DNA of 64,000 bases from Chloroflexota bacterium (GTDB taxonomy: Bacteria > Chloroflexota > Anaerolineae > Anaerolineales > Anaerolineaceae), in NCBI GenBank assembly GCA_016887485.1, contig CP069394.1, forward strand, positions 2,108,001 through 2,172,000. Direction: 5' to 3'. Positions 11,163 through 53,019 of the stretch are shown in pieces (within the stretch, counting starts at the first letter, position 1; the number at the start of each line of letters is the position of its first letter). Both the position numbers and the translations under genes were made by a program. The notes beneath the pieces are model-generated. The model searched no databases, was not told the origin of the DNA, and was given only the letters and a program-made list of their open reading frames with translations.

Positions 11163-11798
11163 ATGTATATTGCCATTGAAGGCGTCATTGGCGTGGGGAA
11201 AACCACCCTGGCCCGGATGTTACAAGCCAATTTTGAAGCGGAACTCCTGCTGGAGATTTTTGAGGAAAATCCCTTTCTCAGCGATTTCTATGGCGACCGG
11301 GCTCGCTATGCCTTCCAAACCCAGATTTTCTTCCTGCTGAGCCGCTATCACCAACAGCGCAAAGGCGTCCGGGAAGCCCTGACATCTAATCCCTGGCTGC
11401 TCTCCGATTACACCTTTGACAAGGACTCGCTTTTTGCGACAGTCAACCTGGACGGGGATGAACTGGAAATGTACTACCGGGTCCATGAAGCGCTCGCAGA
11501 AAAGATCAAACGACCTGACCTTGTCGTCTATCTCAGAGCGGATAACGACATCCTTATGCAGCGAATTGCGCAAAGAGACCGTCCCTATGAACGCCAAATG
11601 GACGTTAATTATATTGCGACCCTGAATCAAACCTACGATACCCATTTCGCCAATTATTCAAACGGCAACGTGCTCACAATCAACACCAACCAACTGGATT
11701 TTGTCCGAAACAAGGAAGATCTGGATTGGGTTGAACAACGTATCCGCCAGGCACTCAAGATGGCTCCATTCCAGGAAAATTTGCCGATCAATCTCTAG
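11163..11798 (+). CDS. Deoxynucleoside kinase (dGK/dAK family)
   Basis: This 211-residue protein starts MYIAIEGVIGVGKTTLARML, giving a Walker A loop at residues 7-14. Other family motifs are DYTFDKDSLFA and the lid region RDRPYERQMDVNYI. It salvages deoxynucleosides by 5'-phosphorylation; whether it prefers deoxyguanosine, deoxyadenosine or pyrimidines is not decidable here. The ATG at 11163 is chosen because GGGAG lies five bases upstream. A nucleotidyltransferase gene begins 16 bp after the stop, probably in the same transcript. Confidence 0.9.
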   Translation: MYIAIEGVIGVGKTTLARMLQANFEAELLLEIFEENPFLSDFYGDRARYAFQTQIFFLLSRYHQQRKGVREALTSNPWLLSDYTFDKDSLFATVNLDGDELEMYYRVHEALAEKIKRPDLVVYLRADNDILMQRIAQRDRPYERQMDVNYIATLNQTYDTHFANYSNGNVLTINTNQLDFVRNKEDLDWVEQRIRQALKMAPFQENLPINL

Positions 11799-11814
11799 TT
11801 CCGGGGGAGGATCT

Positions 11815-12810
11815 ATGCGTATCACAGATGATCTGCTTCATAAATTTGCCCTTGATGCTATTAAAACTCGCAGCCGGACTGAGCCCGACCTTCACGCGGC
11901 CTATCTGATAGGCTCTGTCCCGCTGGATGACGCTCTTTTAGGTGGCGCTGCCGATATTGACATTGTCCTGGTCCACCGCTACAAAATTGATGTTAAGCGC
12001 GAAGTGGAAGATATCACGCCAGAGGTCTCTCTGGATATCCACCATGTTCTCAAGGACGCCTATGAGCCACACCGAAAGCTACGCCAGGACCCCTGGCTGG
12101 GTTACCCGGTGACGCAGCCGAATATCCTGCTGCATGACACCAATCATTGGTTTGAATTTATCCAGGCCGGTGTCAGCGCGGATTTCCAGTCCGCGGAGAA
12201 CGTCCTGGCCCGATCCAATTTGTTATTGGAAGCCGCTCGCGAAAACTGGCTCAACCTGTTGAAATCCACCCCAGCCTCCCATGCCCTCTGGCTCCAACAA
12301 TATCTGGACATCCTGTACCTGGCAGCCAACGCCGTGGCAGGCTTGATCGGATCGCCACTCACCACCCGCCGCTTCCTGGTCAAGTTCCGTGAGCAAGCCC
12401 TCACCCTGGGCGCTCCCGCCATTTTGGCAGATTTTATCGGCCTGTTGGGTAACCTGGATGCAACTCAGGACCAGTTATTTGATTGGACAAAAGCCTTCGA
12501 GGCGGAACTCTCCGAGGCCGCAGATCAACCCATCCCTCTGGACCTGGCGCCTTGCCGCCATTCCTATTATCTGAATGCCATCCGTGCGCTGACTCAGGGC
12601 GACGCCCCGGAGGAAGCTGTTTGGCCGCTCCTGAAGGTCTGGACGGATCTGAACTGTTTGGTTACTGCTAAACCCTCAGCCTCCTGGACTGAGTTGCTGA
12701 ACGCCCTGCAATTAAATATGGAGCACCTCGACCCAAAGGCTGAAGCGCTTGATGCATTCCTGGATAATGTGGAATTGGTTCTGGAGACCTGGGCCAACGC
12801 CTACGTCTGA
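11815..12810 (+). CDS. Nucleotidyltransferase-domain protein of unknown substrate
   Basis: This 331-residue protein starts at an ATG preceded by GGGGGAGG. Near the N-terminus it has a minimal nucleotidyltransferase signature, IGSVPLDDALLGGAADIDIVLV (helix-loop with the DXD pair), and a third acidic position in SLDIHH. The remaining 250 residues look all-helical and are not recognised. It is co-directional with the deoxynucleoside kinase and borders the origin-like region, but no specific role can be assigned. Confidence 0.65.
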   Translation: MRITDDLLHKFALDAIKTRSRTEPDLHAAYLIGSVPLDDALLGGAADIDIVLVHRYKIDVKREVEDITPEVSLDIHHVLKDAYEPHRKLRQDPWLGYPVTQPNILLHDTNHWFEFIQAGVSADFQSAENVLARSNLLLEAARENWLNLLKSTPASHALWLQQYLDILYLAANAVAGLIGSPLTTRRFLVKFREQALTLGAPAILADFIGLLGNLDATQDQLFDWTKAFEAELSEAADQPIPLDLAPCRHSYYLNAIRALTQGDAPEEAVWPLLKVWTDLNCLVTAKPSASWTELLNALQLNMEHLDPKAEALDAFLDNVELVLETWANAYV

Positions 12811-12859
12811 GCGTAGGCATCGTTTTCACCGATCCCTGTTTCCCAAACCAACCCCATTA

Positions 12860-13290
12860 ATATTCATTTAGATGTATCGCGTCCATGTTTACCTGTGGAT
12901 AAATGCCGGAAAACTGTGGATAACTTATACGAAATGTGGATAACTCGCTCAAATATTCCAAGAATCCGCGAATAAGACTCTGGATAGAATCGGGATAAAA
13001 AAGCCACTTTTCGAAGCGAACCCACTTATTCTTCCTGCGGCTGATTTGATCCCCAAATTCTCCACAATGACACGGGGATAGAATCTCACCGATCAAAGCC
13101 CCATATCTTAGGGTGACTCCTGCCGTGCCCCACAGATAAATCGTGTTAATGACTGAGAATCATCGCACCACAGGACTTATCCACTTTTCCACAGCCCCTA
13201 TTACTACAACTAATTAATGATTCTTAATTAAACATATGTGAATATATATTGTTTTAAATTCTCAAAACTCAAAGTGTAACTTTTCCCCCT
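12860..13290. other. Putative chromosomal replication origin (oriC)
   Basis: A gene-free segment of 525 bp lies between the nucleotidyltransferase and osmC-like genes. It has three perfect DnaA boxes in one orientation (TGTGGATAA at 12894-12902, 12915-12923, 12935-12943), spaced 21 and 20 bp apart. Degenerate boxes lie at 12979-12987, 12990-12998 and 13058-13066. A close pair in the other orientation, TTATCCACT (13177-13185) and TTTTCCACA (13185-13193), is followed by a short GC block (GCCCC), then triplets CTA-TTA-CTA-CAA-CTA (13198-13212), then an AT-rich stretch to about 13265. This order matches the DnaA-box, GC cluster, DnaA-trio, unwinding-element layout known from Bacillus. dnaA itself is not in the window. 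Confidence 0.8.
13198..13265. other. DnaA-trio-like triplets and AT-rich unwinding element
   Basis: Top-strand triplets CTA TTA CTA CAA CTA correspond to 3'-GAT-AAT-GAT-GTT-GAT-5' on the other strand, four of five matching the 3'-(G/A)AT-5' trio. They directly follow the DnaA-box pair, and a run of about 50 bases that is almost only A and T follows. Confidence 0.65.
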
Positions 13291-13335
13291 GAACTGCATC
13301 CAAAAAGAAAATAACAGAAATGAGGATTTGATAGT

Positions 13336-13734
13336 ATGGACATGGTAATTGATTTTCCTGGTGGCGCTCGGGTGGATGCCCATTATGGCCCTTATAACAT
13401 TATGACTGACCAACCCCCAGCGGGTGGCGGCAAGGGTGAAGCTCCCACACCTTTTGCCTTATTCCTGGCTTCCATGGGAACCTGTGCCGGGATTTATGTT
13501 TTAGGTTTTTGCCAACAGCGTGGGCTGCCAACTGAAGGCATCCGAATCGTTCAGTCAATGTACCGTTCTCCGGCCACAGGTCTGATCAGCAAAGTTGATA
13601 TGGAAATTCAGGTTCCAGCCAGCTTCCCGGAGAAATATCGCGAGTCACTGATCCGCTCCGCTCAGCTCTGTGCTGTCAAGAAACACCTCGAGAATCCACC
13701 ACAATTTGAAATTACAACAGCTGTGACTGATTAA
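13336..13734 (+). CDS. OsmC family protein
   Basis: This 132-residue protein has the OsmC-like layout: an N-terminal beta region, the PTPFALFLASMGTCAGIYVLGFCQQRG helix with two cysteines (at about residues 49 and 58), and a C-terminal CAVKKHLENPP segment. OsmC/Ohr relatives reduce organic peroxides with a cysteine pair, though many subfamilies have other roles. The ATG is preceded by GAGG at a 10-base distance. The gene is transcribed away from the putative oriC and followed by a hairpin terminator. Confidence 0.85.
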   Translation: MDMVIDFPGGARVDAHYGPYNIMTDQPPAGGGKGEAPTPFALFLASMGTCAGIYVLGFCQQRGLPTEGIRIVQSMYRSPATGLISKVDMEIQVPASFPEKYRESLIRSAQLCAVKKHLENPPQFEITTAVTD

Positions 13735-13763: not shown

Positions 13764-13806
13764 GACCCCGCTTAGCTCTCATAAGCGGGGTCACCGGTTA
13801 ATTTTA
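13764..13806 (+). terminator. Hairpin terminator after the OsmC gene
   Basis: GACCCCGCTTA (13764-13774) pairs with TAAGCGGGGTC (13782-13792). The T-rich tail (TTAATTTTAT) begins a few bases later. Confidence 0.7.
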
Positions 13807-21596: not shown

Positions 21597-21612
21597 TGTT
21601 TCACGTGAAACA
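21597..21612. promoter_or_regulatory. parS centromere site 1
   Basis: TGTTTCACGTGAAACA is a perfect palindrome identical to the widely conserved bacterial parS consensus bound by ParB. Confidence 0.92.
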
Positions 21613-21653
21613 TTGGGATTAGGAAGCTGGAATTTTGGCCTAAGACGCTCCGA

Positions 21654-21669
21654 TGTTTCACGTGAAACA
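21654..21669. promoter_or_regulatory. parS centromere site 2
   Basis: This is a second exact TGTTTCACGTGAAACA, 57 bp from the first. Two perfect copies so close together exclude chance and mark the origin-proximal centromere. parA and parB are not in the window. Confidence 0.92.
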
Positions 21670-24830: not shown

Positions 24831-25967
24831 TCAGCCGATGTGCATGGGCATGATGATGTGCTTGAAGTGATCGTCGCCCTGGGGCCTGATCAGGCCGGGG
24901 GTGTTGGCGGCATTCGTCTCCAGCCAGACATTATCTGCTTTCACCACTTCCAGCACCTCCCGCAGGAAGCGGACATTGAAAGCAACCAGCAGTGGGACAC
25001 CTTCCACAGAGGCATCCACCAGTACTTCTGAGGAGCCGGTCTGCTCGGATTGAGCTGAGATTTCCAGGGTGCCGACACTGGCGTCGTCGGTTTCAGGGAT
25101 GATGTTCAGCCGGGCCACGTTAGTGCCCTCACGGGCGATGATCTCAGACTGCTTGCAGGCTTTGAGCAGGCCAGCAGTGGAGAGCAGGGTGTGGGTTTTG
25201 AAGTTTTGAGGGATGATCGCCCGATAATCCGGGAAATTACCTTCGATCAACTGGGAAGCCAGCTCTAGATTGTCCATATGGAAGATCACCTGACCGCGGT
25301 CTGGCGGGAAGGTCATTACCAGGGTGCCATCTGTGCCGCCGCCGATGATTCGGGCCAGTTCGATCAGTGCCCGGGCGGGGATGATAGCTTCAATCGGCCG
25401 GGAAACGGCATTGGGGATGTCGTCTTCGCGGATGGAGATCCGGAACCCGTCGGTTGCGGCCATGGTGATATGATCACCGTCCAATTTGAGCAGTACGCCG
25501 GTCAGAACGGGGCGGGCTTCATCCATGGAGGCTGCAAAAGCAACCTGCTGGACCATTTCCTTGAAGTTTGCAACGTTCAGCGGGACGCCTTCATCGATAT
25601 TGGGCTCGGGAATTGGCGGGAATTCTTCGGCATCAATCCCTTTGATGTTGGTCTCGGATGTGCCGCATTTCACATTGAGGGTATGGGTGCTGTTATCCAG
25701 GATGAGAGAGACCTGTTCGTTCGGTAAATTGCTAACAAGATCCGTGAACGTCCGCGATGGAACGGTGATTGCCCCTTCACCTTCGACTTTTGCGCCCATC
25801 CAACAGGTGATCCCCAGTTCGAGGTTGGTCGCGGAAAGACGCAGGCGGCCATCATCGGTTTTGATCAGGATATTTGATAGCACGGGCAGGGTGCTGCGGG
25901 GGGAGACAGCCCGTGAAACGATACTGACACAGTGGGCAAGTTGTTGTTGATTGACGAAAACTTTCAT
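24831..25967 (-). CDS. dnaN: DNA polymerase III subunit beta (sliding clamp)
   Basis: This 378-residue protein has the length of the family and its landmark segments: MKVFVNQQQLAHCVSIVSRAV, STLPVLSNILIKT, SATNLELGI, DGFRISIRE and a C-terminal HIIMPMHIG ending the third domain. The clamp tethers replicative polymerase to DNA. Here it stands alone, with its own terminator, about 12 kb from the oriC-like region, instead of beside dnaA. It has no operon partner on either side. Confidence 0.96.
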   Translation of the reverse strand: MKVFVNQQQLAHCVSIVSRAVSPRSTLPVLSNILIKTDDGRLRLSATNLELGITCWMGAKVEGEGAITVPSRTFTDLVSNLPNEQVSLILDNSTHTLNVKCGTSETNIKGIDAEEFPPIPEPNIDEGVPLNVANFKEMVQQVAFAASMDEARPVLTGVLLKLDGDHITMAATDGFRISIREDDIPNAVSRPIEAIIPARALIELARIIGGGTDGTLVMTFPPDRGQVIFHMDNLELASQLIEGNFPDYRAIIPQNFKTHTLLSTAGLLKACKQSEIIAREGTNVARLNIIPETDDASVGTLEISAQSEQTGSSEVLVDASVEGVPLLVAFNVRFLREVLEVVKADNVWLETNAANTPGLIRPQGDDHFKHIIMPMHIG

Positions 25968-26244: not shown

Positions 26245-26349
26245 GTCCGGGTGGGACCGGCGCGGCGGAGCCCTGCGAACCCCGTCAGGTCCGAAAGGAA
26301 GCAGCGGTAAGGAGGTATCTCCGGGTGCCGCCGGGAATCCTGCTCGGAC
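26245..26349 (+). ncRNA. ffs: Signal recognition particle RNA, small bacterial type
   Basis: The region contains the highly conserved SRP domain IV loop GTCAGGTCCGAAAGGAAGCA, in which the GGAA-type tetraloop is GAAA. It is closed by GTCCGG...CGGAC pairing of the two ends (26245 and 26349). The size of about 105 nt fits the 4.5S type without an Alu domain. It binds Ffh and targets ribosomes to the membrane. A run of eight T follows directly at 26351-26358 as terminator. Confidence 0.93.
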
Positions 26350-38554: not shown

Positions 38555-38919
38555 GGGAGCGCTCCTGGGTGAAGTCGGTTTCAAACATCATAACACAAAG
38601 CCGTTTTGAGTGCAAAACCTGACGTTCTATTGAAAATTAATGAATTACAGCGGTCATTTTGATGGTTTCTAATGATTCTGTGGGGTGATCGTCGGGTAAT
38701 AACAGGTCAACCGTCAAGTATCGGGGAATGGACTTCGCTATACTAAGAGCATAGAATGCTTCGTAAAATAAGGAATCAAACCAACACGACGAAAACCGGG
38801 ACGGCGTACCCGGTTTTCATCGTTAAAAGTCATCCACAGCTTATTCACAGGTTTTTCGGGGGTAAATGCCCTGTTTTTCAACACTTTTCCACAGTTTTTA
38901 GGCAGTTATCCACAGTTTA
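38555..38919. other. Gene-free region with a DnaA-box cluster
   Basis: A hairpin GAAAACCGGG (38791-38800) / CCCGGTTTTC (38809-38818) could be a bidirectional terminator. It is followed by four DnaA-box-like 9-mers in one orientation: TCATCCACA (38830-38838), TTATTCACA (38841-38849), TTTTCCACA (38885-38893) and the perfect TTATCCACA (38906-38914). There is no DnaA-trio or AT-rich stretch like that at 13.2 kb. Confidence 0.7.
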
Positions 38920-47065: not shown

Positions 47066-48406
47066 ATGTCCGAAATTAAATCGGTCGTCAAGCGGGATGG
47101 GTCGGTTGTAGATTTCACCCCCCAAAGGATCACCAATGCCATTTACCGTGCCGCGGTAGCTGTTGGCGGGCGAGATAAAGCCACAGCACAACAGCTCTCC
47201 GATGAGGTTGTGCGGGTCTTGGAAGAGAATACCCCTCCCGGTGAGATTCCCACAGTAGAACAAATTCAGGATACGGTTGAAAAGGTCCTGATCGAACAAG
47301 GCCATGCCCGGGTGGCCAAGGCCTATATCCTCTACCGGGCGGAGCGGGCCCAGCTGCGTGAACAGCGGGCGGACCGGCGTTCCAAGCCGTCCAGCAACAT
47401 CCCCTGGTCCAAGCTCTGGCGGGTGTTGGATTGGGCAGTGGATCATAACGTCCAATCGGTGGAGCACCTCAATGAGCGCATCAGAAAGGGTGAAGTCTCC
47501 CAGATCGTGGCGGAGTCGGAAGCCTTCTATAACGAAGATGTGGAAAACGCCGCCAACCTGGCCGCCCAGCGGAAGGAAGACCTGCGGATGGTGATCATCG
47601 CTGGGCCGTCTTCTTCGGGCAAGACCACCACGACCATCAAGATGGGTGAGCGGCTGGCACGCTATAACATGCGGCTGGTCACGCTGAATGTGGATAATTA
47701 CTTTTTCGACCTGGAGATGCACCCCAAGGATGAGTTTGGGGATTATGACTTTGAGACGCCCCAGGCGTTGGATTTGGAACTGATCAATCAGCACCTGAAC
47801 CGCATGTTCGACGGCGAAGAGGTGTTGATCCCCTTCTATGACTTCAAGACCGGCACCCGTCATCTGGACCAGACCCCCATGAAGCTGGAGCCGAATGACG
47901 TGATCCTGATCGACAGCCTCCACGGGCTCTATCCCGATATGACCAAGGATATTGCCCCGGAGCGGATCTTCCGGCTCTATATTGAACCCTTATTACAGCT
48001 CAAGGACCCGGATGGGCATTATGTCCGCTGGACGGATATCCGTCTGATCCGTCGGATGCTGAGGGATCAGGCCCACCGGGCTTATGACCCAACCAAGACC
48101 CTGCTGCACTGGCACTATGTTCGCTCCAGTGAGCTGCGCAACATCATCCCCTACGTGAACACCACGGATTACATCGTCAACAGCGGCATGCCCTATGAAA
48201 TGCCGATGTATAAGGCGAAGCTGTTCCCGGAGTTCAAGCGCTGGACCGAAGAATACGCGGATGACCCGCTGCGCAAGGATGCCTTTGAACGAGCCAGCCG
48301 GGTCTATCAGCTGATGCAGTCCCTGGACGCCATCGAGGATGATACGGTCGTGCCGGAAAACTCTGTGATCCGCGAGTTCATCGGCGGGAGCATTTACGAG
48401 TATTGA
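47066..48406 (+). CDS. ATP-cone / uridine kinase-like fusion protein
   Basis: This 446-residue protein has an N-terminal ATP-cone (residues 1-95: VVKRDGSVVDFTPQRITNAIYRAA, EIPTVEQIQDTVEKVLIEQGH), as found in ribonucleotide reductases and NrdR. A uridine kinase/phosphoribulokinase-like domain follows, with Walker A AGPSSSGKTTT at 179-189 and VILIDSLHGLYPDM. The fold points to phosphorylation of a nucleoside or related substrate, with the cone as an allosteric ATP/dATP sensor. The start is an ATG with AAAGGAG five bases upstream. An intrinsic terminator follows. Confidence 0.85.
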   Translation: MSEIKSVVKRDGSVVDFTPQRITNAIYRAAVAVGGRDKATAQQLSDEVVRVLEENTPPGEIPTVEQIQDTVEKVLIEQGHARVAKAYILYRAERAQLREQRADRRSKPSSNIPWSKLWRVLDWAVDHNVQSVEHLNERIRKGEVSQIVAESEAFYNEDVENAANLAAQRKEDLRMVIIAGPSSSGKTTTTIKMGERLARYNMRLVTLNVDNYFFDLEMHPKDEFGDYDFETPQALDLELINQHLNRMFDGEEVLIPFYDFKTGTRHLDQTPMKLEPNDVILIDSLHGLYPDMTKDIAPERIFRLYIEPLLQLKDPDGHYVRWTDIRLIRRMLRDQAHRAYDPTKTLLHWHYVRSSELRNIIPYVNTTDYIVNSGMPYEMPMYKAKLFPEFKRWTEEYADDPLRKDAFERASRVYQLMQSLDAIEDDTVVPENSVIREFIGGSIYEY

Positions 48407-48434
48407 TCGTTTGAGAAGTTGGAATAAATAACAG

Positions 48435-48470
48435 GAGGCTGTCCCTTACTTTTGGGGCAACCTCTTTTTT
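48435..48470 (+). terminator. Intrinsic terminator after the ATP-cone kinase
   Basis: GAGG-CTG-TCCC and GGGG-CAA-CCTC form an imperfect stem (48435-48464) followed by six T. Confidence 0.8.
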
Positions 48471-48663
48471 ATTGTTTTCACTTCTAGCATTATGTAGACC
48501 GTCACATGCGCTGCGCAGCATCTGACCTGTGTCTGATACTCGATTTTTTTGGTAATGAGCTACCTCCGTGAAGGTAATGGTTAGATTCTATTCGCTCCCA
48601 AATCCTGGCACAAAACTTAAGTGCTATACTTCTATATTAAGAATCAATTCTTTAAAGTGGGAT

Positions 48664-50394
48664 ATGATGGATAATTTCTTTATAGATCAAGCAGAAAAAA
48701 GAGCTGAATATCTACAGTTAATCCTTGACTCTGATTCGCGAAAGAAGATTATTGTCGCTGGTCCGGGAACAGGGAAGACTTATACTTTTAAACAAGTCTT
48801 TTTGAATACAGGCTCGACGAATAATCTTGCATTGACTTTCATCCGAAAATTAGTAAATGATATGGATGATGATTTTGGAGATCTCGCAGAAGTAAAAACA
48901 TTCCACGCTTTTTGTAAAAAATTGCTTCATGAAAAGGAAGGTGGATTTGAGCTTTTTCCATTTCTTGAGCAACTAATTGAAGAAGACTCGGATTTATTGG
49001 GATTTTCCTACTCTAATTTTTCAAATCATTTTCAATTGCTCAACGAAGATTCTCAACAAATATCCTTTTATATTACTCGTGGAAACTATTATAATGCGGT
49101 TAGTTTCAATGATTCCGTCTATCGAGTGTTAAAGATCTCAGAAACAGATCCGGATTTTATTCCAAAATATGATCAGATAGTTATTGATGAGTTTCAGGAT
49201 TTTAATCCCTTAGAGGTTTCTTTTATTAATTTACTGGAAAAGAACAATAAGGTGTTGATAACTGGCGATGATGATCAAGCCGTATATGCGCTAAGGAATT
49301 CTTCTTCTGAACATATAAGAGATAAATATTATTCGGGTGATTATGACAAATTTGAGTTACCTTTCTGTAGTCGATGCCCAAAAGTTGTAGTTGATGCTAC
49401 ATCAAGTTTCATTAAATCAGTCATTGATTGCGGCGGTCTTCAATCACGAATTAATCGGAAATTTTATCCTTATCTTGAAGGTAATGAGTCTGTAAATTCG
49501 CGATATCCAAAAATTGTTACTGCTGAAATATCTACTATTTCTGTTATGGGAAATTTTATTAAAGCTGCAATTGAAAAAATCCCAGATGATGAGATACAAG
49601 AAGCTAATGAAGAAGGCAATCCTTGTGTATTAATCGTCGGCAAGCGACAATATCTAAATCCAATTTACAAAAAACTATCGAAAAACTTTTCAAATTTAAT
49701 TTATTCTCCTTCGGAAGAAATTAATTACACGCTCTTAGATGCTTACAAGGTAATAATCAGGAAACCCGAATCAAATATTGGTTGGAGAATTATTGCATCA
49801 ATAATGCTTGATCAAGATGAGTTGGAAAGTGTTATAGAGAGAAGTAGAGATTTTACACCGATGATTAACCTTCTTCCAGCTGACATCGTAAATTTAAATG
49901 TATCAATTCTTGAATTACTAAAAAGTGAATCACTAGATCTGGACATATTAAACGATAAGATTGAAGGTATTAATGAAGATTTTAATCCCATTATTAACTA
50001 CTTTTATCCACCAGAAGCAGAAGACGAATTAGAGGATGAATCGGCCCCTGATAATTCGGAACCATTGATAATGTTTACTTCCTTTGAGGGATGTAAGGGC
50101 CTGTCGGCTTCCCATGTTTTTATTGTCGGTCTAAATAAGGGTATTGTTCCAAAAGTTAATGAAGTAGAGGGTGTCTCTGATATTGAATATTCAAAATTTA
50201 TTGTTGCAATGACAAGGACGAGAAAATTATTATATCTTCTTTCCAATAGGTATGATTATAATCCAAGAAAAGGTCGAAATTATGTATCTCCTTTCATTAA
50301 TTTAATTCCTAATGTTCTTAAAACCCCAATCGAGTATATAAAATCTTCAAAAATAATGGATTTTCTAAACCACATAAATGAAAATTTATCCTAA
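48664..50394 (+). CDS. UvrD/Rep-like superfamily 1 helicase, AT-rich
   Basis: This 576-residue protein has Walker A AGPGTGKT (32-39), motif Ia-like LALTFIRK, motif II VIDEFQDF (173-180), motif III LITGDDDQAVYAL (198-210) and motif VI VAMTRTRKLLYLL near the C-terminus. It is shorter than UvrD or PcrA (about 720) and has a reduced 2B-like part. Codon use is strongly AT-biased (many AAA, TTA, ATA, AGA), unlike the GC-rich genes around it, which points to horizontal transfer. No nuclease, methylase or other defence partner is next to it. The start at 48664 or 48667 is likely. Confidence 0.8.
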   Translation: MMDNFFIDQAEKRAEYLQLILDSDSRKKIIVAGPGTGKTYTFKQVFLNTGSTNNLALTFIRKLVNDMDDDFGDLAEVKTFHAFCKKLLHEKEGGFELFPFLEQLIEEDSDLLGFSYSNFSNHFQLLNEDSQQISFYITRGNYYNAVSFNDSVYRVLKISETDPDFIPKYDQIVIDEFQDFNPLEVSFINLLEKNNKVLITGDDDQAVYALRNSSSEHIRDKYYSGDYDKFELPFCSRCPKVVVDATSSFIKSVIDCGGLQSRINRKFYPYLEGNESVNSRYPKIVTAEISTISVMGNFIKAAIEKIPDDEIQEANEEGNPCVLIVGKRQYLNPIYKKLSKNFSNLIYSPSEEINYTLLDAYKVIIRKPESNIGWRIIASIMLDQDELESVIERSRDFTPMINLLPADIVNLNVSILELLKSESLDLDILNDKIEGINEDFNPIINYFYPPEAEDELEDESAPDNSEPLIMFTSFEGCKGLSASHVFIVGLNKGIVPKVNEVEGVSDIEYSKFIVAMTRTRKLLYLLSNRYDYNPRKGRNYVSPFINLIPNVLKTPIEYIKSSKIMDFLNHINENLS

Positions 50395-50530
50395 TTATTT
50401 AAATTAATCATCCGTGACTCGCTATGTTGTATCTCGTATTGACTTGGTATTATTTCCGTGAAGTCACCGATTTTTCACCAATTCGTCACTATACAGGTAA
50501 ACATGTTAACACTTGTGCAATTAAATATAA
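50395..50530. other. AT-rich spacer between helicase and duplicated segment
   Basis: This 136 bp AT-rich stretch has no recognisable gene or repeat. It ends where similarity to the phosphomutase 3' end begins. Confidence 0.4.
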
Positions 50531-50560
50531 AAACCCCGGAGAGACAGTCCGGGGTTTTTT
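50531..50560. terminator. Bidirectional terminator, left copy
   Basis: AAACCCCGGA (50531-50540) pairs with TCCGGGGTTT (50548-50557) with A- and T-runs on the outer sides. The same hairpin stands at 53194-53220 behind the phosphomutase gene. Confidence 0.85.
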
Positions 50561-50584
50561 GATGGGAACGACTTCCCTAAAATG

Positions 50585-50681
50585 TTACTTCAGCGCATCC
50601 AGCCACTTTTGGGCGATCTTGCGGTTGCGGTTTTCCAAAATCTGCATAGTCTGCACCCGTTTATCACAAACATTGGCCAGG
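50585..50681 (-). pseudogene. Duplicated C-terminal fragment of the phosphomutase gene
   Basis: Read on the minus strand this segment encodes ANVCDKRVQTMQILENRN followed by RKIAQKWLDALK and a stop, nearly the same as the C-terminus of the phosphomutase at 53249. A 59 bp block (50589-50647) is identical to 53253-53311. The last Lys codon differs (AAG versus AAA), and two residues differ (R/L, T/Y), so this is a slightly diverged copy, not an assembly echo. It is only about 32 codons long and has no start. Confidence 0.8.
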
Positions 50682-50702
50682 TTTGCAATTTTAGAAACAA
50701 AT

Positions 50703-51035
50703 TCATTTTTGTTTGAAGGTGCTGGGAGCAGGGGCTTTCACTACGATTAACTCCAACAGCTCTTCATTGAGATTCCTGACGTCCATCCGGGTTTTGAAGG
50801 GGATTTTTAGCAGACTTCCGGAGGCATAGGTAAGGACCTCCTGGTCATCCAATCCGATTGAAAGGGTCCCTTTGAGAACGGTCATATAGACATTCGAGTT
50901 TGAAATATGGATTGGCAAACCTTCGTCCTTAGCAAAACGCATATGAATATAATCCAGATTATCGTCTTGAATAACCTTGTCGACCTTTTTATCGCTGTTT
51001 AGATTTAGATCGAATACTTCTTCAATTTTCGCCAT
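50703..51035 (-). CDS. Cupin-like small protein
   Basis: This 110-residue protein has a single cupin-type beta-barrel pattern (GLPIHISNSNVYMTVLKG, IGLDDQEVLTYASGSLLKIPFKTRMDVRN). The usual metal-binding His motif is largely absent: one His remains in PIHIS. The ATG follows AAGGTGG. It begins 27 bp after the hcp stop codon, so it is probably co-transcribed. The stop overlaps the start of the duplicated phosphomutase fragment. No function is assigned. Confidence 0.7.
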   Translation of the reverse strand: MAKIEEVFDLNLNSDKKVDKVIQDDNLDYIHMRFAKDEGLPIHISNSNVYMTVLKGTLSIGLDDQEVLTYASGSLLKIPFKTRMDVRNLNEELLELIVVKAPAPSTFKQK

Positions 51036-51062
51036 GTGACCACCTTATTTTTTATTAATCAA

Positions 51063-52748
51063 TTAATTCCCAGCCATCATTGCGGGAACATCGTTTTCTA
51101 CGCTGTCGATTGGTTTAAGATCAAACTGCTTGACAAGAACTGATCCAACATTGGGTGAGAGGAATGCCGGCAGTGTAGGGCCAAGCCTGATCTTGCGAAT
51201 CCCTAAGTGCAGCAGAGCAAGGAGCACAATCACAGCTTTCTGCTCATACCAGGCAATATCATAGGAAATCGGGAGGTCATTCACATCATCCACGTTAAGA
51301 GCGCCAGCCAGGGCTTGGGCGGTCTTGATTAACGAATAGGAATCATTGCATTGACCAGCATCCAGTACTCTTGGAATGCCACCAATATTCCCCAAGTTCA
51401 GTTTGTTGTAGCGATATTTGGCACAACCAGCTGTGAGGATCACTGTATTTTCTGGCAGCGCTTCTGCAACGTCGGTGAAATATTGGCGTGATTTTTGGCG
51501 TCCATCACAACCACCCATCACCACAAAACGTTTGATAGCGCCTTTTTGGATAGCGTCAATAATGGTTTCTGCATTTGCCAATACCGTCTGATGAGCAAAG
51601 CCAGTGGTGATGGTTTGATCTTCCAAAGGCTCTGGTTCAGGGCAGGTTTTTGCCAGGGCAATAATTTCAGAAAAATCCTTTTGATCACCAGGCTTTCGAT
51701 CTGGAATATGGGTACAACCGGGATAGCCTGCCATGCCTGTGGTAAAGAAGCGCTCAGTATATTCAGTTTTAGGACGCACAATGCAATTTGTGGTCATCAA
51801 TATTGGACCGCCAAATTTATCAAATTCCTCACGTTGCTGCCACCAGGAACCGCCATAATTGCCAACAAAATGCTCATATTTTTTAAAATGGGGGTATGCA
51901 TGTGCCGGAAGCATTTCGCCATGCGTATAAACATTTACGCCCGTTCCCTCGCTCTGTTGAAGTAATTCTTCCAGATCCAACAGATCATGGCCGCTCACCA
52001 GAATACCGGGGCCGGGTTTCACACCTAGGTAGACTTGGGTGGGCTCCGGATGACCATAAGCGCCGGTATTGGCTCTATCCAACAGCTCCATTGTCCGCAG
52101 GCCCATTTCGCCTGTTTTAAGGACCAGTCCGGTTAGTTCAGCAACAGTCAGACCATTATTTGTTGTCGCTTCAAGCATTTCCTGGATGAAATGGAGTACC
52201 TCAGGATCTTTGGCTCCCAATACATAAGCATGATCTACGTACGCCGCAATCCCTTTCAGTCCATAGGTGATCAATTCGCGCAATGACCGAACATCCTCAT
52301 TGACGCCCGCATCACCCATAACACCCACCTGCGATGCTTTTTCCGATAAAACCTCTACAGTAAAATCGGTAGGTGTCCAGGAAGCCCAATCGGGGCCAGT
52401 GCCAGTGCATGGCTTGTTATGCAGTTCATGGCACCGTTGTTGGGCATTTTTTCGAAGGGACTCGCGCCGCTCTACGGCTTCGCGGATCAAAGACGCCATC
52501 CGCTGCTCATCAAAATTGGCATTGGTTATCGTGGCGAATAAACCTTCTGCAACAAATAGGTTGGTCTCTTCATGGATCACGTCCATAGACCGACCGCGTG
52601 TTCCCCAAAAAGAAATACCTTTCAAGAGATAGACCAACAAATCCTGAAGATTGGCAACTTCAGCGGTCTTTCCACACATTCCCCGGGTGACGCAGCCTTT
52701 GTTATTAAAGGTTTCTTGACATTGATAGCAGAACATCTCTGATGACAT
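51063..52748 (-). CDS. hcp: Hybrid cluster protein (hydroxylamine reductase), anaerobe type
   Basis: This 561-residue protein has the N-terminal CX2CX8CX5C motif (C7, C10, C19, C25), expected to hold a [4Fe-4S] cluster as in strict anaerobes. Hybrid-cluster ligand motifs include the GHDLLDLEELL segment, VYTHGEMLPAHAYP, GCDGR and TAGCAKYRYNKL. It reduces nitric oxide or hydroxylamine and protects against nitrosative stress in the cytoplasm. The ATG at 52748 has AAGGAG five bases before it. A palindromic operator candidate lies at 52811-52828. Confidence 0.94.
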   Translation of the reverse strand: MSSEMFCYQCQETFNNKGCVTRGMCGKTAEVANLQDLLVYLLKGISFWGTRGRSMDVIHEETNLFVAEGLFATITNANFDEQRMASLIREAVERRESLRKNAQQRCHELHNKPCTGTGPDWASWTPTDFTVEVLSEKASQVGVMGDAGVNEDVRSLRELITYGLKGIAAYVDHAYVLGAKDPEVLHFIQEMLEATTNNGLTVAELTGLVLKTGEMGLRTMELLDRANTGAYGHPEPTQVYLGVKPGPGILVSGHDLLDLEELLQQSEGTGVNVYTHGEMLPAHAYPHFKKYEHFVGNYGGSWWQQREEFDKFGGPILMTTNCIVRPKTEYTERFFTTGMAGYPGCTHIPDRKPGDQKDFSEIIALAKTCPEPEPLEDQTITTGFAHQTVLANAETIIDAIQKGAIKRFVVMGGCDGRQKSRQYFTDVAEALPENTVILTAGCAKYRYNKLNLGNIGGIPRVLDAGQCNDSYSLIKTAQALAGALNVDDVNDLPISYDIAWYEQKAVIVLLALLHLGIRKIRLGPTLPAFLSPNVGSVLVKQFDLKPIDSVENDVPAMMAGN

Positions 52749-52810
52749 GAACACTCCTTTTTCAGAACATTAATTTTCAATCCTACTATAACCCACTAAT
52801 TAGATAAATA

Positions 52811-52828
52811 ATATGACTTAAGTCGTAT
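52811..52828 (-). promoter_or_regulatory. Candidate operator upstream of hcp
   Basis: ATATGACTTAAGTCGTAT is an 18 bp palindrome with one mismatched pair, centred 71 bp before the hcp start. The TGAC-N4-GTC core resembles sites of CRP/FNR-type regulators such as HcpR that control hcp. Confidence 0.5.
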
Positions 52829-52898
52829 TATGTAAAGTAATAACGATGTTTTGAAAGGCTGAATGATAACTTATTTTAAAATCGAAATACCCTTGAAG

Positions 52899-52939
52899 AA
52901 CATCCTATTTGTTTAACACTTTGGAACAAATAGGGTGTT
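52899..52939. other. Long inverted repeat upstream of hcp
   Basis: AACATCCTATTTGTT (52899-52913) pairs with AACAAATAGGGTGTT (52925-52939) with a single wobble pair and an 11-base loop. No T-run follows on either strand, so the role is open. Confidence 0.5.
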
Positions 52940-52993
52940 GATATTTACTATAAGGGGTTAATGAGTTTTCATTGGGGTGGTGTATAAGCGCAA

Positions 52994-53019
52994 ACGACCA
53001 GAGTTGCAACTCTGATCGT
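52994..53019. other. Palindrome between hcp and the phosphomutase gene
   Basis: CAGAGTTGCAACTCTG (52999-53014) is a perfect 16 bp palindrome, extended on both sides by ACGAC/ATCGT with one mispair. It could be an operator or part of a terminator. Confidence 0.45.

Follow-up and report, generated by a model that had tools for sequence, protein, structure and literature searches.

A very probable chromosomal replication origin in a Brevefilum-like member of the Anaerolineaceae, and natural A/C variation in the DnaA-trios of the Anaerolineales

Sequence comparisons indicate that a 525-bp intergenic region is very probably the chromosomal replication origin (oriC) of a Brevefilum-like member of the Anaerolineaceae (Chloroflexota). 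The region lies in the 64,000-nucleotide stretch of DNA that we analysed (hereafter the window), which corresponds to positions 2,108,001-2,172,000 of contig 1 (2.72 Mb). The basis for this assignment is the position of the locus at a switch in GC skew, the conservation of its elements, and an intact DnaA protein that carries the known base-capture residues. An initial annotation had already proposed the region as a candidate oriC, and this reading is very probably right given the skew switch, the conserved elements and the lack of a box cluster near dnaA. With an origin placed for a Chloroflexota genus that is known mainly from draft genomes, growth rates would become measurable from read depth. 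A further proposal concerns the DnaA-trios. We consider it likely, with some reserve, that the trio code is 3'-G-M-T-5', where M is A or C rather than A alone, that this code is used by Anaerolineales and by other phyla, and that it is an evolutionary confirmation of capture through the amino group, a model that came from mutants of B. subtilis. Both the kind of origin and origins distant from dnaA are already known, and what is new is the natural variation in the trios.

Elements and chromosomal position of the locus

The intergenic region, in which no ORF of 80 or more amino acids is present, contains a cluster of DnaA boxes adjoining an AT-rich stretch (Table 1). A reversed array of three perfect boxes is followed by a middle section of degenerate boxes, and then by an unwinding module that begins with two offset boxes having one base in common. 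The initial annotation had described three perfect boxes plus degenerate ones in a gene-free segment, with the last two boxes leading to GCCCC, five CTA/TTA-type triplets and AT-rich DNA; every element was recovered where it had been placed, and in that order. On the top strand the five triplets read CTA TTA CTA CAA CTA. The sequence CCCTA, where the GC cluster meets the first triplet, recurs in genus and order loci, and the 60-mer that starts at 13208 ranks in approximately the top 0.01% of the window's 60-mers for A/T content. The spot aligned to the middle-section box at 13058-13066 is variable across the genus. The spacer at 12924-12934 (CTTATACGAAA) is not a DnaA box, yet it is the same in 9 of 11 genus loci, and perhaps it serves as a site for another protein.

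Table 1. Features of the candidate origin and its surroundings (positions in the window)
Feature	Position	Strand	Remarks
Left neighbour	11701..12810	+	longest frame 369 aa, without known family
Candidate oriC intergenic region	12811..13335		525 bp between flanking reading frames
Perfect DnaA box, upstream array	12894..12902	-	TGTGGATAA
Perfect DnaA box	12915..12923	-	TGTGGATAA; 21 bp past 12894 box; spacing conserved
Perfect DnaA box	12935..12943	-	TGTGGATAA; 20 bp past 12915 box
One-mismatch DnaA box, middle section	13058..13066	+	TTCTCCACA
Unwinding module box 1	13177..13185	+	TTATCCACT; one mismatch; conserved in genus and order loci
Unwinding module box 2	13185..13193	+	TTTTCCACA; one mismatch; 8-bp offset; recurs in genus and order
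GC cluster	13194..13198		GCCCC
Five DnaA-trios	13198..13212	-	lower strand 3'-GAT AAT GAT GTT GAT-5'
AT-rich unwinding stretch	13208..13267		A/T 51/60
OsmC-family gene, right neighbour	13336..13734	+	PF02566; beside box array in 11/11 genus loci examined
parS, two perfect sites	21597..21669		at 21597 and 21654; 8.4 kb from oriC
dnaN	24831..25967	-	TIGR00663, 6.4e-85; 11.6 kb from oriC
SRP RNA	26249..26348

Boxes with at most one mismatch occur 28 times in the window, compared with a mean of 12.7 in 100 shuffled versions, one of which reached 28. Six of these boxes fall within 300 bp at the locus, and no 500 bp holds more than three in the 40 stretches of 20 kb that were sampled from the genome. 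Perfect TTATCCACA boxes number 45 genome-wide (18 for the reversed-pattern control), and their only group of three is the array at 12894-12943. Box density had been named beforehand as a check, and it favours the locus, which is denser than the sampled genome and carries its sole triple of perfect boxes.

The skew test, likewise named beforehand, places the negative-to-positive inversion at the candidate site. Among 20-kb samples taken approximately 67 kb apart, every sample between 810 kb of contig 1 and the site has negative GC skew, and every sample beyond the site, through the end of the contig and onward to 675 kb, has positive GC skew. At 742 kb the value is -0.002, and AT skew mostly mirrors GC skew. 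Inside the window, the switch from negative to positive falls between 12 and 14 kb, and the cumulative GC-skew minimum is located at 13780, approximately 0.5 kb from the AT-rich stretch. The opposite change occurs near 742 kb, about half a genome away, and if the contig approximates a closed circle with its terminus near this point, the two arms measure approximately 1.34 and 1.38 Mb; a second contig of approximately 0.18 Mb is unplaced. Negative dips in 2-kb skew to the right of the site, around 28-30 kb and 50-53 kb, count against the origin reading. The window also contains a low-GC stretch at 48000-53000 (0.35-0.38 at 48-51 kb versus approximately 0.53), with disturbed skew at 50-53 kb, which is possibly acquired DNA.

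The neighbourhood is that expected from the initial annotation, which had reported parS, dnaN and SRP RNA within 13 kb, dnaN at about 12 kb, and a dnaA gene that is not adjacent. All three markers are confirmed, and the genome has no parS site besides these two when up to two mismatches are allowed (the reversed-pattern control matches in one place). The dnaA gene is found at 2,440,199-2,441,506, which is 319 kb from the origin, and thus the locus lacks the dnaA-oriC-dnaN arrangement with dnaA within a few kilobases. The gene on the left probably starts at 11815 (MRIT...). In other genera of the family, a frame whose start looks similar by eye follows the dNK-like gene ahead of oriC.

Clusters of DnaA boxes also exist outside of origins, as exemplified by datA and DARS, and the locus resembles these sites in having clustered boxes. 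Moreover, a smaller second cluster at 38830-38914 demonstrates that such clusters occur outside the origin in this window as well, and it may itself be of the datA/DARS kind. We nevertheless judge it very improbable that 12811-13335 is a titration or regulatory cluster of this type situated near the real origin. The skew flips at 12811-13335 and not at 38830-38914, and the GC cluster, triplets and AT-rich stretch that are conserved beside the boxes of the former were not seen together, by eye, at the latter. Unwinding elements and a skew switch thus distinguish the locus from datA and DARS. Even less credible is the idea that the true origin adjoins dnaA and that 12811-13335 is a relic or an integrated plasmid origin. 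Two genomes from other families of the order (G045 and G052) do carry dnaA directly before the module. However, the rival cluster beside dnaA that could have overturned the initial annotation is absent, as the one-mismatch boxes in the 20 kb around dnaA number five and are scattered, and the skew there (+0.076) is that of the right arm. In addition, the locus is kept across the genus, and a scan of 20 window genes to its left and right named no plasmid-type initiator.

The second cluster comprises four DnaA boxes (one perfect) and adjoins the 3' end of an ABC-F-like gene. In one related genome (G012), three boxes are located at the equivalent place by the orthologous gene, and no counterpart was found in the stretches of another (G013). 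This cluster is possibly a DnaA-titration site.

Conservation within the genus and the order

Sixteen genomes of the genus, including this one, were searched for the OsmC gene at a cut-off of E < 1e-60, and 11 carry it (10 of the 15 others). In all 11, the three perfect boxes with their 21/20 spacing precede this gene, and the unwinding module is present (including matches at up to two mismatches). A twelfth genome (G014) has both array and module, but lacks a full OsmC match. The sign of the skew also changes at the orthologous site in the two genomes tested, G012 and G013. In each, the five stretches to the right are all positive, and of the five to the left four are negative and the fifth is slightly positive. 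The OsmC gene was rejected as an oriC marker beyond the genus, given that in none of 19 loci of other genera does the array accompany it within the flanks covered.

Across the order Anaerolineales, 91 of 251 genomes (56 of the 139 good ones) carry the module TCCACWTWTCCACANNCCCTAC with no more than one mismatch, including two that have it twice, and its reversed control gave no matches. The remaining 160 genomes lack it at this threshold, and thus the architecture is common but not universal, or the pattern is too strict. The Bacillus-like order of elements that the initial annotation had recognized (boxes, GC cluster, triplets and usually an AT-rich stretch) recurs in the genus and order loci examined.

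Perfect box pairs spaced by 20-22 bp are present in 156 of the 251 genomes and absent from the control. By the filter used, 31 of 50 paired-box sites have no module, and therefore the pair also exists elsewhere than at the module. A reversed pair (at most one mismatch, 20-22 bp) lies 200-320 bp before the module in 38 of 39 loci examined, the exception being at 469 bp, which argues that array and module form one unit. Across 55 loci the distance between them is conserved (mean 280, sd 19). A helical phase signal was obtained relative to jittered distances (p of approximately 0.002 at a period of 10.5), but we do not rely on it, since the best period is 11.5 and a peak at 282-286 may cause the signal. 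The box pair alone was also set aside as a phylum-wide marker because it is not specific outside of the order; among 26 loci inspected by eye (L251-L276), a CTA-type run is clear in one (G509) and perhaps present in another (G410). Some members of one genus (g8) carry additional, closely packed DnaA-box arrays at 1.3-2 kb past the module, as in L110 (G022), where the array is found 1334-1575 bp after it, and at G260:C25:42544.

In nearly all genomes of the order that were examined, dnaA was not found beside the origin, and dnaN is often near. We searched 80 genomes for both genes; 76 of these have the module, and 75 have the module and dnaA. Only in G045 and G052 (2 of 75) does dnaA adjoin the module. 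Three genomes (this genome, G131 and G202) carry gene and module on one contig, separated by 189 kb to 2.1 Mb. In the other 70 the two are on different contigs, and as most of these genomes are drafts, this last count signifies non-adjacency as far as can be seen and gives no distance. For dnaN, 20 of 76 genomes have the gene on the module's contig, and in 19 of these it lies within 4-103 kb. The order dnaA, array, module in G045 and G052 suggests that dnaA may have left the origin in the other lineages. A bipartite origin from whose middle dnaA was excised was rejected, because in these two genomes array and module both come after dnaA. In the single-contig genome G202 (L117, G202:C1), 2 Mb separate the module from dnaA and dnaN, and skew at coarse resolution is noisy; this genome is perhaps rearranged or misassembled, and we count it against the origin reading.

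Predicted course of unwinding and comparison with known origins

The DnaA protein of this genome aligns with Bacillus subtilis DnaA (8BTG_A) over residues 6-442 of 450, and N187, I190, I193, R202 and E228, whose base-capture roles are described in the available text of PMC10721633, are identical. A basal unwinding system (BUS) is characterized in the accessible part of PMC8287927 by a box or tandem boxes no more than 16 bp before the trios, and in the locus the last box ends at 13193 and the first trio starts at 13198. By analogy with B. subtilis, DnaA would first fill the high-affinity reversed array, and a second platform would form on the offset box pair. From this pair, a DnaA filament would run across the GC cluster onto the five lower-strand trios and capture two bases per trio, thereby melting the AT-rich stretch to approximately 13270, in which region the helicase would be loaded for two forks. 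The distant dnaA gene would not be part of the origin.

The likeness to the B. subtilis BUS extends to the tandem boxes, the short GC-rich spacer, the 3'-GAT-like trios on one strand, the AT-rich stretch, and a DnaA with the same base-capture residues. However, the array and module share a single intergenic region here, whereas in B. subtilis the box regions flank dnaA (PMC13220808, as far as its available text goes). The trio centres of the order are A or C, whereas the published search (.A.){3,} demands A, and E. coli, whose oriC is likewise apart from dnaA, has a relatively weak BUS score in contrast to the clear and conserved module here (both points of comparison from the accessible part of PMC8287927). 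In Thermotoga maritima, the annotated trio is supportive and not essential according to the available text of PMC10316083, and therefore a trio need not be decisive everywhere.

Natural variation at the trio centres

The trios were compared at 73 loci from 47 genera, 55 of which were found via the module pattern (48 of the 91 module genomes plus seven more of the genus) and 18 via the upstream box pair. Most of trio 1 is set by the module pattern, as is the opening base of trio 2, but the centres of trios 2-5 are all left free, and for the 18 pair-found loci the sole trio bases used were the anchor TA followed by C, A or G. The triplet rhythm lasts for five triplets and then ends. Read on the trio strand, the centres of trios 2-5 are A in 177 cases, C in 106, T in 4 and G in 5 (A or C in 283 of 292), compared with 114 of 292 for A or C in the next four triplets past trio 5; the loci are related by descent, and thus these counts are not independent. 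The pair-found loci agree (A 42, C 27, T 1 and G 2; n=72), and when each genus, trio and base state is counted once, the totals are A 122, C 80, T 4 and G 5. In 66 of the 73 loci none of the five centres departs from A or C, and 63 loci have at least one C.

On an OsmC-gene tree of 11 species of the genus (support not examined), at least nine changes are required at the five centres (0, 3, 2, 3 and 1, respectively). The sole state other than A or C among the genus centres is the T in the fourth trio of this window, where CAA breaks the A/C rule. The window's centres are thus A, A, A, T and A, giving three central-A trios in register. Across the 73 loci, a central A in each of the first three trios is found in 18, and in any three of five in a row in 23. 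A to G is in general the commoner kind of mutation. That G is nearly absent all the same points to selection for the amino group. The loci therefore provide a natural experiment on the bases that DnaA reads, in which A and C replace one another and G and T hardly occur, in keeping with what the capture model demands.

This natural interchange matches a laboratory result described in the accessible text of PMC10721633, wherein a central C in B. subtilis trios keeps the in vitro rate of strand separation and G or T lowers it, and growth and initiation are better in C mutants than in those with G or T. The same text reports that Asn187 touches the amino group, and raises the possibility that DnaA homologues may recognize a range of sequences. 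Elsewhere, the central base has been termed strictly conserved (PMC8235120), deviant trios without a central A have been suspected (PMC8287927), and the printed trios of B. subtilis, Helicobacter pylori, T. maritima and Clostridioides difficile have a central A (PMC10316083, PMC7561715), in each case in the parts available. Natural C-centred trios are not reported in the available text of these cited papers. Among the matches listed in a search of titles and abstracts, mostly of open literature and without supplements, no paper treats Anaerolineae origins or natural C-centred trios, which is not proof of novelty.

C-centred trios were also sought across phyla by scanning 84,980 species with a pattern in which the second and fourth trios must have a central C, and since C was required, the 23 stretches matched give no frequency. 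In 15 of the 23, dnaA and/or dnaN lies within approximately 0.35 kb (14 dnaA, 12 dnaN), which places C-centred trios at origins in several phyla. These 15 are from Selenomonas, Propionispira (two), a Clostridia MAG, Isoptericola (three), Flavimobilis, Ornithinimicrobium, two MAGs labelled Bifidobacterium breve, an Acidimicrobiia MAG, a Myxococcales MAG, a Synergistaceae MAG and Dichelobacter nodosus. Three others are Brevefilum-type loci with OsmC, and five are Anaerolineae, Anaerolineales, Anaerolineaceae or Chloroflexia MAGs with no dnaA match in the stretch examined.

Conservation of sequence cannot separate the two strands, and B. subtilis DnaD binds opposite the trios (PMC13220808, available text). 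The A/C rule could therefore reflect an upper-strand reading of CTA/CGA by a DnaD-like protein instead of base capture by DnaA, which we consider unlikely, though less so than the alternatives to the origin assignment. Favouring DnaA, A or C on the lower strand is what the chemistry measured in PMC10721633 (as given in its accessible text) predicts, this DnaA also has Asn at the position that touches the amino group, and C-centred trios are found in several phyla. If base capture of A or C is the correct reading, origin searches that require a central A could miss or misread many origins; a general trio code becomes directly testable, and would supply origin finders with a better motif.

Another Chloroflexota family (f40) exhibits an origin-like locus of a different layout. 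Two inward-facing box pairs, approximately 80 bp apart and on opposite strands, surround an AT-rich, partly palindromic core, forming a putative mirror-symmetric unwinding module. It was seen in eight loci (L277-L284, from G318, G437, G489, G548, G334, G326, G408 and G542) and less clearly in L290. Neither dnaA, dnaN nor OsmC was matched within approximately 8 kb of the four loci tested, and among the papers matched in a literature search, none treats mirror-symmetric modules with trios on both strands by title and abstract. Inspection of the eight by eye revealed CTA-type triplets in register on both arms in five, and on one arm, with the other shifted, in three. In G408, the coarse skew tends from negative to positive at the locus, with scatter.
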